64,000 nucleotides of DNA. Source: Rikenellaceae bacterium (GTDB lineage: Bacteria; Bacteroidota; Bacteroidia; Bacteroidales; Rikenellaceae). The stretch is from the NCBI GenBank assembly GCA_017935625.1, contig JAGBHC010000046.1, positions 1 through 64,000 on the forward strand, read 5' to 3'. The translations under genes were made by a program, and so were the position numbers. Shown one piece after another: positions 31,036-43,176 of the stretch. How positions within the stretch are numbered: the stretch's first letter is position 1; each line of letters opens with the position of its first letter. The notes under the pieces are model-generated. The model had not been told where the DNA came from. It was given only the letters and a program-made list of their open reading frames with translations, and did not search any database.

Positions 31036-32229
31036 CTATCGCGGCAGTACCTTCACCTTGAGTTTGGCATAGGCGCGTTCGGCTTTGGCGAGCGCCTCCT
31101 CCACGGTGTCGGCGCTGGCGAGGATGACGCCCATGCGGCGATGGCCGCAGACCTCGGGCTTGCCGAACAGCCGCAGCTGTACGTCGGCTTCGGCGAGCAC
31201 CTCCTCCAGGTTGTCGAACACCACTTTGTCGGTGTCGCCCTCCACTACGATGGCCTTCGATGCCGAGGGGCGGTAGAAGCGGATGGCGGGAACGGGCAGA
31301 CCGAGTACGGCGCGGGCGTGGAGCGCGAATTCGGAGAGCTCCTGCGAAATCATGGTGACCATGCCCGTATCGTGCGGGCGGGGCGACACTTCGCTGAAGA
31401 GCACTTCGTCGCCGCGTATGAAGAGTTCCACGCCGAAGATGCCGTAGCCGCCCAGGGCGTCGGTCACGCGCAGGGCAATCTCCTCGGCCTTGGCGAGGGC
31501 CGCCGGGCTCATGGGCTGGGGCTGCCACGACTCGCGGTAGTCGCCGTCCACCTGATGGTGGCCTATGGGTTTGAGGAACGAGGTTCCGGCGCTGTGGCGC
31601 ACCGTGAGCAGCGTGATTTCATAGTCGAACTTCACGAAGCCCTCCACGATGACGCGTCCCGCACCGGCGCGGCCGCCCTCCTGGGCGTTGGTCCATGCCG
31701 CGTCGATATCCTCGCGGCTGCGGATGACGCTCTGGCCGTGTCCCGAGGAGCTCATGATGGGCTTCACCACGCAGGGAATGCCTATCTGCTCCACGGCTTC
31801 GTCGAATTCGGCTTTCGTCGAGGCGAAGCGATAGGGCGAGGTGGCGATGCCTAGACGTTCGGCGGCCAGGCAGCGGATGCCTTCGCGGTTCATGGTCAGC
31901 AGGGCCGCCTGGGCCGTGGGGATGACCTTGTAGCCCTCTTTCTCGAGCTCCACCAGGGTGGGGGTGGCGATGGCCTCGATTTCGGGAATGATGATATCGG
32001 GCTGTTCGGCCTCGATGATTTCGCGCAGGCGTTTGCCGTCGAGCATCGACAGCACGTAGGAGCGGTGTGCGACCTGCATGGCCGGAGCGTTTGCGTATTT
32101 GTCGAGCACCACGACTTCCACTCCGTATCTTTGCAGCTCTATGGCTACCTCCTTGCCCAATTCTCCGGAGCCGCACAGCAAGGCCTTCTTGGCGGCGGGA
32201 GAGTTGTGTGTACCTATTTTCACCATCAT
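31036..32229 (-). CDS. purT: Formate-dependent phosphoribosylglycinamide formyltransferase 2
   Basis: A 397-residue ATP-grasp enzyme. [30 protein letters not shown] at the N-terminus, the [17 protein letters not shown] lid region, [16 protein letters not shown] in the ATP site and the [15 protein letters not shown] segment are diagnostic of PurT, which makes formyl-GAR from GAR, formate and ATP in purine synthesis. The frame stays open through the upstream repeats, but the family N-terminus begins at one of two adjacent ATGs (32229 or 32226). It is preceded by three promoter-like repeat units. Confidence 0.95.
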
Positions 32230-32254
32230 TGTATCTTTTTTCGGGTTAAAGCGC

Positions 32255-32470
32255 GACAAATATAGTAATATTCGATGAGAAATGAAAGCGCGGGCGGCAT
32301 AGCCGGCGTGCGTTCGCAAGGCGATTCATTCGAGACAAATATAGTAATATTCGATGAGAAATGAAAGCGCGGGCGGCATAGCCGGCGAGCGTTCGCAAGG
32401 CGATTCATTCGAGACAAATATAAGAATATTCGATGAGAAATGAAAGCAGGGGCGGCATAGCGGGCGTGCG
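32255..32470. repeat. 79-bp tandem repeat, about 2.7 copies, carrying -7 boxes
   Basis: Units begin at 32255, 32334 and 32413 (period 79). The first two differ at one base of 79; the third is 58 bases long with about five differences, then diverges. Each unit reads TATATTTG on the minus strand (32264-32257, 32343-32336, 32422-32415), with a CTTTC 19 bases upstream as a possible -33 element. The array directly precedes purT, so it seems to give several copies of the purT promoter. Confidence 0.88.
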
Positions 32471-32496
32471 CTATTTTTTTCATCGAATATACTCCG

Positions 32497-32504
32497 TATA
32501 TTTG
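32497..32504 (+). promoter_or_regulatory. -7 box TATATTTG for the iron alcohol dehydrogenase gene
   Basis: An exact TAnnTTTG box on the plus strand, preceded by a T-run (32474-32480) at -33 distance. The flanking CATCGAATAT is the inverse of sequence in the tandem repeats, so the divergent promoters look like an inverted duplicate. Confidence 0.6.
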
Positions 32505-32560
32505 TATCGGGGCCGCCGGAAGGGCGGCCCGGAAAAGCGATAACTGAAAAGGTTTTGACT

Positions 32561-33709
32561 ATGAAAAATTTCGTGTTTCAGAATCCGACCAAACTGCTGT
32601 TCGGTCGGGGAGCGATAGAGCGCATGCGGGCGGAGATTCCCGCGGATAAGAAGCTGATGGTGACTTTCGGCGGGGGCAGCGTGCGTGCCAACGGCGTCTA
32701 CGAACGTGTGACCCGGGCGCTCGAAGGGCTCGACTATGTGGAGTTCTGGGGCATAGAGCCCAATCCGAAAGTGGAGACGGTGCGGGAGGCCGTGGCGATG
32801 TGCCGCCGCGAGGGGGTGGAGTTCCTGCTCGCGGTGGGCGGCGGTTCGGTGCTCGATGCCACGAAGCTCATCGCCGCGGCGGTGCATGCCGGGGCCGATG
32901 CCTGGGAGCTGGTGCGCAATCCGGCGCTGTTGCCCGAGGCGATTCTCCCGTTCGCCGATGTGATGACGCTTCCGGCCACGGGCTCCGAAATGAACAACGG
33001 AGCGGTGATATCCAATGCGGCCACCCGCGAGAAGTTCGCCTTCTATTCGCGGTTCCCGCTCTTTTCGGTGCTCGACCCCGAGGTGACCTACTCGCTGCCG
33101 GAGTATCAGATTGCCTGCGGGCTGGCCGACACGTTCGTCCACACCGTGGAGCAGTATCTGACCGTGGCGGGGGAGTCGCCGCTCATGGACCGCTGGGCCG
33201 AAGGGTTGCTTTCGACCCTGGTGGAGGTGGCGCCCGGAGCGATGGCCGCCGAGCCCGACTACGACAGTAGGGCGACCTACATGCTGTGTGCGACGATGGC
33301 CCTGAACGGATTCATCGCCATGGGCGTGAGCCAGGATTGGGCGACCCATCGCATCGGGCACGAAATCACGGCTCTGCACGGGGTGACGCACGCCCAGACG
33401 CTGGCCGTGGTGCTGCCGGCCGTGATGGCCGAGCTGCAGGAGCAGAAACAGGACAAACTGTTGCAGTATGCGGCCCGTGTGTGGGGCCTGTGCGAGGGGA
33501 GCCGGCAGGAGCGTATCGACGCGGCGATAGCCCGGACCGGGGAGTTTTTCCGTTCGCTGGGGCTGAAGACCCGTCTTTCGGAGCTGGGCATCGGCCGGCC
33601 GACGGCGGAGGAGATAGTGCGCCGGTTCGCTGAGCGCGGTACGCGGTTGGGCGAAAAGGCCAATGTGGACGCCGCAGCGGTGGGGCGCATTCTGGAACGA
33701 TGCCTGTGA
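32561..33709 (+). CDS. Iron-containing alcohol dehydrogenase (NADPH-dependent butanol dehydrogenase-like)
   Basis: A 382-residue group III alcohol dehydrogenase. It has the nucleotide-binding LMVTFGGGSVRANGVYERV and AVGGGSVLDATKLIAAA segments, PATGSEMNNGAVI, and the metal-binding late HRIGHEITALHGVTHAQTLAVVLPA with its His ligands; Asp in GLADTFVHTVEQYL is also conserved. Close to the BDH/YqhD branch that reduces short and medium aldehydes with NADPH. A TTG two codons upstream extends the frame, but ATG 32561 is the usual start. The next gene starts within a few bases. Confidence 0.92.
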   Translation: MKNFVFQNPTKLLFGRGAIERMRAEIPADKKLMVTFGGGSVRANGVYERVTRALEGLDYVEFWGIEPNPKVETVREAVAMCRREGVEFLLAVGGGSVLDATKLIAAAVHAGADAWELVRNPALLPEAILPFADVMTLPATGSEMNNGAVISNAATREKFAFYSRFPLFSVLDPEVTYSLPEYQIACGLADTFVHTVEQYLTVAGESPLMDRWAEGLLSTLVEVAPGAMAAEPDYDSRATYMLCATMALNGFIAMGVSQDWATHRIGHEITALHGVTHAQTLAVVLPAVMAELQEQKQDKLLQYAARVWGLCEGSRQERIDAAIARTGEFFRSLGLKTRLSELGIGRPTAEEIVRRFAERGTRLGEKANVDAAAVGRILERCL

Positions 33710-42923: not shown

Positions 42924-43085
42924 GGTTCGATATCTTTTATCCCGGCGTCGGTCCCGTCGGAATGCTTCCTCTCTTATGCGAGTGGTATTCCGGATACGCA
43001 AAATCCGATTCCTGATACGCAAAATCCCGCAAGGTCGCTACCTTACGGGATTTGTCCTGTGCCCCTCCCCTTGCTTCGGGAAGTC

Positions 43086-43176
43086 TGGCGGAGAGAAGGG
43101 GATTCGAACCCCTGAAACCCTTTAGAGGTTTACACGCTTTCCAGGCGTGCCAGTTCAACCACTCCTGCATCTCTCC
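43086..43176 (-). tRNA. tRNA-Ser(GGA)
   Basis: A 91-base serine tRNA including an encoded CCA. Acceptor GGAGAGA pairs with TCTCTCC; the anticodon loop is CTGGAAA in CCTGGAAAGCG; the T-loop reads GGGGTTCGAATCCCC; the long variable arm (CCTCTAAAGGG) is typical for Ser. Its upstream promoter is described separately. Confidence 0.96.

Follow-up and report, generated by a model that had tools for sequence, protein, structure and literature searches.

The 79-bp tandem repeat upstream of purT in the genome of this gut-type Rikenellaceae bacterium is probably a member of a dispersed, lineage-restricted and non-autonomous family of promoter-bearing repeats, whose history, as read from the sequences, would comprise insertion 3′ of TTTG, restoration of the promoter, local duplication and the use of a hairpin (H) as terminator or insulator. 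About 38 genes of one lineage seem to have had their promoters replaced by this family, translation, replication and cell-wall genes (efp, holB, glmS and rnhB) among them, whereas relatives use ordinary promoters.

The analysed stretch of 64,000 nucleotides, referred to below as the window, contains a tandem repeat at positions 32255–32470, to which Tandem Repeats Finder (TRF) assigns a period of 79, 2.7 copies, 94% matches and a score of 390. The features of this locus, with bit scores from the covariance model (CM) described below, are:

31036–32229, minus strand: purT, formate-dependent phosphoribosylglycinamide formyltransferase, above the cut-offs of TIGR01142 (587.8 bits, cut-off 502.15) and NF006766
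32257–32335, minus strand: unit 1, gene-proximal, a three-way-junction hairpin and then the promoter, with TATATTTG at 32257–32264 (CM R1 86.0 bits; TRF)
32336–32414, minus strand: unit 2, with TATATTTG at 32336–32343 (CM R1 85.1 bits)
32415–32471, minus strand: unit 3, truncated on its distal side and lacking the 5′ outer stem and the small hairpin, with TATATTTG at 32415–32422
32475–32504, plus strand: element-type promoter of the divergent gene, TTTCATCGAATATACTCCGTATATTTG, with a hairpin common with unit 3 and a box at 32497
32561–33709, plus strand: iron-containing alcohol dehydrogenase-like gene, divergent to purT, whose best NCBIfam match is NF011717 (461.9 bits, below the cut-off of 645)

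Units 1 and 2 are identical at 78 of 79 positions, the single mismatch (T/A) being at 32309, and unit 3 has 6 mismatches to unit 2 in 56 compared bases. On the minus strand, TAnnTTTG boxes start at 32257, 32336 and 32415, in register, and the purT ATG lies 25 bases beyond the array. The initial annotation, made from the sequence alone, had reported the repeat, the single difference between units 1 and 2, the promoter box at the same place in units 1 and 2 and its retention in the shortened third one, and the 25-base spacing, all of which we confirm; its reading of each unit as holding a plausible, correctly oriented promoter is likewise supported by the sequence. In the truncated unit 3, the hairpin meets the element-type promoter of the divergent dehydrogenase gene: the unit aligns to model positions 23–81, and its CM match (42.9 bits) reaches 32489, inside the divergent promoter, which matches the pattern CGAATATACTCCGTATATTTG on the plus strand at 32484–32504, with its −7 box at 32497. 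Positions 32415–32504 thus hold one hairpin between two opposite element-type promoters, those of the purT array and the dehydrogenase gene, as a large inverted repeat, ATTCGATGA...TCATCGAAT. A coding origin of the array was rejected, as the 85-aa ORF spanning it has no NCBIfam match and the period of 79 is not a multiple of 3. Elsewhere in the window, a separate 21-bp tandem repeat (42987–43027, 2.0 copies, 95%) lies near a minus-strand tRNA at 43089–43176.

Searching the genome of origin (2.18 Mb, 54 contigs) with a 281-base query from the purT array returned 37 matches, the query itself included. The CM was built on 37 units, which as seeds match it by construction. A whole-genome search with it gave 82 matches (E ≤ 0.05), and a search of the loci fetched from the genome gave 85 (E ≤ 0.01), the weakest of which may be decayed units or chance matches. 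With a reverse-strand match (L015 1481–1564, plus strand) left out, the other 84 units, each of about 81 bp, form 40 array segments of one to six units (14 single, 14 double, eight triple, three of four units and one of six), which are dispersed, short, non-coding and intergenic and stand before genes. Two pairs of contig ends face each other inside near-identical units, namely the right end of contig C33 of our genome, G000 (segment L003), with the left end of C14 (L009), and the right end of C41 (L018) with the left end of C4 (L021). These are probably two long arrays that broke the assembly, and joining them, as we infer, brings the number of loci to about 38. Where no contig end interrupts the gene side (38 segments), a start codon in the same direction follows 7–275 nt downstream in 37 (median 53; ORFs picked by codon-position GC). 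The sole unit pointing at no gene start (L170 1636–1716) has lost its −7 box, reading TATCCGA. On the far side of the arrays, the neighbouring genes, read by eye, are codirectional in 15 cases, divergent in 16 and unclear in nine.

A Pfam match at 1e-6 was obtained for 31 of the 37 proteins downstream of arrays, and these matched proteins revealed no common pathway. They include PurT, aminopeptidase P, a HemW-like radical SAM protein, DNA polymerase III delta′ (holB), a GlmS-like glutamine amidotransferase-SIS protein, EF-P (efp), RNase HII (rnhB), TatD, YicC, FTCD, GTP cyclohydrolase I, ZnuA, a PLD-type protein (cardiolipin synthase-like, cls), transporters and glycosidases. Beyond its own genome, the family is rare: the CM matched in five of 150 genomes of the bacterial family (our own; G036, G094 and G082, these three of one genus; and G090), so that related units occur in four of the 149 others scanned, among them three of the 23 in the genus of G036.

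Read gene-ward, the alignment yields the unit consensus TCTCGAACGAATCGCnTnGCGACCGCACnCCGGCCTnnGGCCGACnGTGCTTTCGTTTTTCATCGAATATTnnTATATTTG, in which a palindromic three-way junction of about 55 bases (H) is followed by a T-rich tract and the promoter P = TTTCATCGAATAT, a few variable bases and TATATTTG; the array can be written P(H-P)n, with a single repeated module. In the fold, the outer stem AACGAA/TTCGTT surrounds two hairpins, a small one (TCGC/GCGA) and a GC-rich one. Across 37 distinct units, 91.4% of the cells are paired, and two-sided change occurs in 11 of 20 pairs. Cells with two-sided change number 39 against 12.0 (sd 3.4) after shuffling, a contrast that sequence kinship can inflate; more weight was given to the slid-partner control, in which pairing falls to at most 47.7%, and to the distinct stem variants (AATGAA/TTCATT; CCGTCC/GGAC). 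RNAalifold alone retains 12 pairs. CGAATAT and ATATTTG are near inverted repeats of each other, separated by a variable-length loop; CGAATAT may owe its conservation to this arrangement.

Outer stems also divide the units into subfamilies. One with an A-run/T-run stem is found in our genome (L030, L026, the first unit of L029 and the second of L015) and in G090 (L149, L153), and it joins our units with those of G090, a different genus, in the unit tree. At the G036 loci L182–L198, two subfamilies carry AACGAA/TTCGT and ACCGAA/TTCGGT, respectively, a compensatory difference.

TAnnTTTG at −7 is the consensus of sigma-ABfr-type promoters, according to the passages cited (PMC7366714). It is present in all three purT units and, in its exact form, in 57 of the 82 units scored genome-wide (two of the 84, cut by contig ends, were left out). 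The composite motif CGAATAT-n(2–9)-ATATTTG occurs 47 times in our genome (once in the reversed control), 18 times in G036, 10 times in G094 and four times in G090, with 0–4 occurrences in each of the remaining genomes of 250. A hairpin and a T tract follow each inner promoter; on the simplest interpretation, the gene-proximal promoter would mainly drive the gene, here purT, and inner transcripts would be short. On this reading of the sequence, H is most likely an intrinsic terminator or insulator; a simple terminator scan of the window reported none on the purT strand.

These observations bear on three readings in which the array serves regulation. The initial annotation had suggested that gain or loss of 79-bp units alters the number of active purT promoters and hence purine synthesis, and the three in-register boxes, the two near-identical units, the range of one to six units per array and a difference of two units against one at an orthologous locus in our genome and G036 would all agree with such a switch. 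The family, however, fronts dozens of unrelated genes, and in multi-unit arrays the inner units keep the exact box less often (26 of 44) than the gene-proximal ones do (20 of 24; one-sided p 0.036, a value that ignores the non-independence of units within one array). Moreover, a terminator-like hairpin and then a T-rich tract come after every inner promoter (of 12 bases, on average 6.8 are T on the promoter strand and 2.1 on the other strand, 57 units), so that extra units need not add transcription. We therefore consider a dosage switch highly unlikely, and neither the link to purine synthesis nor added promoter output from extra units is supported; of the earlier reading, the plausible promoter in each unit and the fit with a recent duplication are kept, while the role specific to purT gives way to a genome-wide family. 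The recent local duplication proposed from units 1 and 2 fits the family as a whole, in which the mean identity of full-length units is 81% for the 57 pairs within an array and 64% for the 2499 pairs from different arrays, the comparison covering 72 of the 84 units (74–90 nt).

Alternatively, each promoter could give rise to a short RNA that folds as a three-way junction and stops at the T tract, acting as a small-RNA array or as an attenuator on the next gene, with the repeat kept for its RNA. The compensatory changes in the stem and the restriction of the T tract to the promoter strand would suit such a device, as would model-fitted alignments in which G.U outnumbers A.C (53 to 28 and 49 to 17); in the free alignment, however, the ratio is 32 to 27, and overall this strand test leans only weakly towards the promoter strand. 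An RNA device is distinctly unlikely in our view, considering that the unit belongs to no Rfam family, that no conserved loop sequence hints at a ligand or target, and that the array genes share no pathway. A known structured RNA was rejected for want of a match above the gathering score, the window giving two tRNAs only and the best sub-threshold match in 32200–32560 having an E of 0.5. That CGAATAT-n-ATATTTG is the operator of a regulator, with the arrays defining its regulon, is hardly probable at all: the motif is nearly confined to arrays and present in three genera, but its half-site spacing varies within the 2–9 bases searched, the targets mix housekeeping, transport and glycosidase genes, and only 3 of 20 orthologues in G036 have the element in common.

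Comparison with relatives indicates what stood at these loci without the element. Clear orthologues in G036 (at least 44% identity) were found for 20 of the 27 array genes in the joined query, and the element is present at three of them, the PLD/cls gene, znuA and the gene of L005; the presence of arrays thus differs between related genera at orthologous genes. Of 13 element-free G036 orthologues inspected, nine carry an ordinary box, exactly TAnnTTTG, no more than 150 nt from the start, and GAATAT was seen in only one of 27 upstream regions inspected in G036 and G094. Judging by these sequences, most genes that bear arrays in our genome would be served by one ordinary promoter in the relative. 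The promoter-to-start distances in our genome and G036 correlate with a Spearman coefficient of 0.90 or 0.29 (n = 9), depending on the box chosen at one gene.

At purT itself, the upstream regions of 13 relatives (among 80 loci fetched) hold no array, and the idea that purT regulation is conserved together with the array was rejected on that account. Ten genomes reached via purT loci, with no positive control among them, gave no CM match. In the closest relative by PurT (L037, 85%), the divergent dehydrogenase–purT pair is kept, with ordinary boxes and without an array as read from the sequence, and its genome has no CM match either. G036, G094, G082, G090 and G018 yielded no close purT orthologue; their best match (31%) is probably purK. 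Phage or plasmid carriage was also rejected: plasmid and phage records had no match to the array, the hairpin pattern was found in no viral contig, and the promoter pattern was found in one, AT-rich and without a full unit, which we treated as chance.

How the arrays arose may be traced at their left boundary. TTTG directly precedes the first unit in 17 of 38 arrays of our genome and 18 of 32 arrays of the relatives, against a shifted-position background of 3.4%; for the complete TAnnTTTG, the counts are 9 of 38 and 10 of 32, with a background of 0.08%. Since units were delimited from TTTG to TTTG by choice, this boundary is partly chosen, and the non-circular part of the evidence is a contrast in GAATAT, which lies near only 1 of the 17 and 1 of the 18 left-boundary TTTGs but near 52 of 71 unit ends with TTTG (Fisher 4e-7 for our genome). 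As GAATAT is nearby so rarely, the left-boundary boxes are, on this sequence evidence, not element promoters. The left boundary lacks an intact TTTG in 21 of our 38 arrays, including that of purT, where it was lost in the divergent promoter. None of 37 arrays has an ordinary TAnnTTTG between the last unit and the gene. Many arrays are flanked by TTTG on both sides, which would suit a target site duplication, but the 3′ copy is also the element's own −7 box.

The left TTTG, the GAATAT contrast and the lack of a box between array and gene are together compatible with a unit having entered between an ordinary box, directly after its TTTG, and the 5′ leader. The preferred reading would accordingly run as follows. 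A unit would insert directly 3′ of TTTG in an ordinary −7 box, and its own 3′ end would re-create the box, so that the new promoter could take over transcription, with the old one stranded behind the hairpin and left to decay. The unit would then multiply in place by tandem duplication, through slippage or unequal exchange, which the palindromes would favour, and H would stop or insulate inner transcription, leaving the gene-proximal promoter to serve the gene, here purT. Dispersal itself seems to lie further back: 14 within-array pairs of units are at least 95% identical, compared with 1 of the 2499 between-array pairs, which is probably a single array split by an assembly gap, and by this measure there is no recent dispersal. 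In a tree of 102 units (72 of our own and 30 of the relatives' 38 matches), in which columns are few and many forks open, units group by array and species, with 8 label changes against 27.8 after shuffling. At three orthologous loci shared with G036, the units do not pair by locus, and our znuA unit (L180), on a long branch of unsure placement, lies among those of G036.

A serious, if rather unlikely, rival to insertion is ectopic gene conversion or template switching among similar −33/−7 regions, which would have overwritten native promoters and spread the P-H unit in each genome without any transposition. It would account for the clustering of units by species and the failure to pair by locus, for a last promoter that lies roughly at the ordinary-promoter position of relatives, and for the lack of a transposase, Y1_Tnp (PF01797) having been found in none of the five element-bearing genomes (G000, G036, G094, G090 and G082; completeness 93% for G000 and 79% for G090; controls match in 5 of 14). 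The sharp left boundary at TTTG speaks against it, and ordinary promoters would seem to have too little sequence in common to prime conversion. A more far-reaching form of the insertion reading is possible but doubtful: the family may represent a new kind of mobile repeat that integrates at host −7 boxes after TTTG, a folded DNA or RNA module whose promoter restores the displaced one, so that it could settle in essential-gene promoters while the host survives and, its own promoter being the next target, yield tandem arrays.

IS200/IS605-type and REP/PATE elements insert 3′ of a short fixed motif and have palindromes near their ends, and the insertion proposed here, after TTTG, follows a similar logic. 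Their Y1 transposase family, however, is absent from the five genomes tested; because of this, we did not assign the array family to the IS200/IS605 type, and an origin from REP/RAYT or IS200/IS605 was rejected. Correia elements of Neisseria are MITEs with terminal inverted repeats and no tandem hairpin–promoter array, whereas the family described here is a tandem array of hairpin–promoter units, whose ends (TCTCAAACG... and ...TATATTTG) are not terminal inverted repeats and whose palindrome is internal. Both are small non-autonomous repeats that often lie just before genes and carry promoters (PMC10969869).

The nearest in kind, among the systems compared and as far as the cited passages describe it, is the BrickBuilt MITE of Porphyromonas gingivalis, with 19 dispersed, strictly intergenic copies and promoter activity in E. 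coli (PMC4596501). Like BrickBuilt, our family is found in Bacteroidota, is dispersed, intergenic and restricted in range (BrickBuilt to its species, ours to its lineage), varies in the number of tandem units, has predicted stem-loops and lacks a transposase of its own (PMC4596501). According to the same passages, BrickBuilt consists of a 23-nt minisatellite within leader and tail modules that end in inverted repeats and contain bidirectional promoters (PMC4596501), whereas here the unit of about 81 bp is itself hairpin and promoter, in one direction; the period at purT is 79, and the arrays have no leader or tail in common. The pneumococcal BOX, with RUP and SPRITE, is likewise interspersed and modular, one of its modules being a tandem repeat of variable number, and has a folded RNA (PMC3049150). 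BOX elements (boxA-boxB(n)-boxC) affect downstream expression and show low current mobility (PMC3049150), but they belong to a different phylum and have distinct end modules, and the BOX passages cited give no insertion at a −7 box with promoter restoration (PMC3049150). No boxA/boxB/boxC arrangement is seen in our family, whose single repeated module, P(H-P)n, sets it apart from BOX by description.

Promoter-carrying interspersed repeats are already known, but in this family the repeat unit itself is hairpin plus promoter. Among the openly licensed papers found on Alistipes, Rikenellaceae and Bacteroidales, none has a title or opening abstract lines that describe such a family. If the preferred reading, insertion with restoration of the −7 box, is true, the family would be a clear case of promoter turnover through a repeat whose insertion is tolerated even in important promoters since it restores what it breaks. 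The arrays, with one to six units in front of many genes, also offer a natural series on the effects of tandem promoter–hairpin units on expression, and, with two array pairs at contig ends, the family is one that breaks assemblies.
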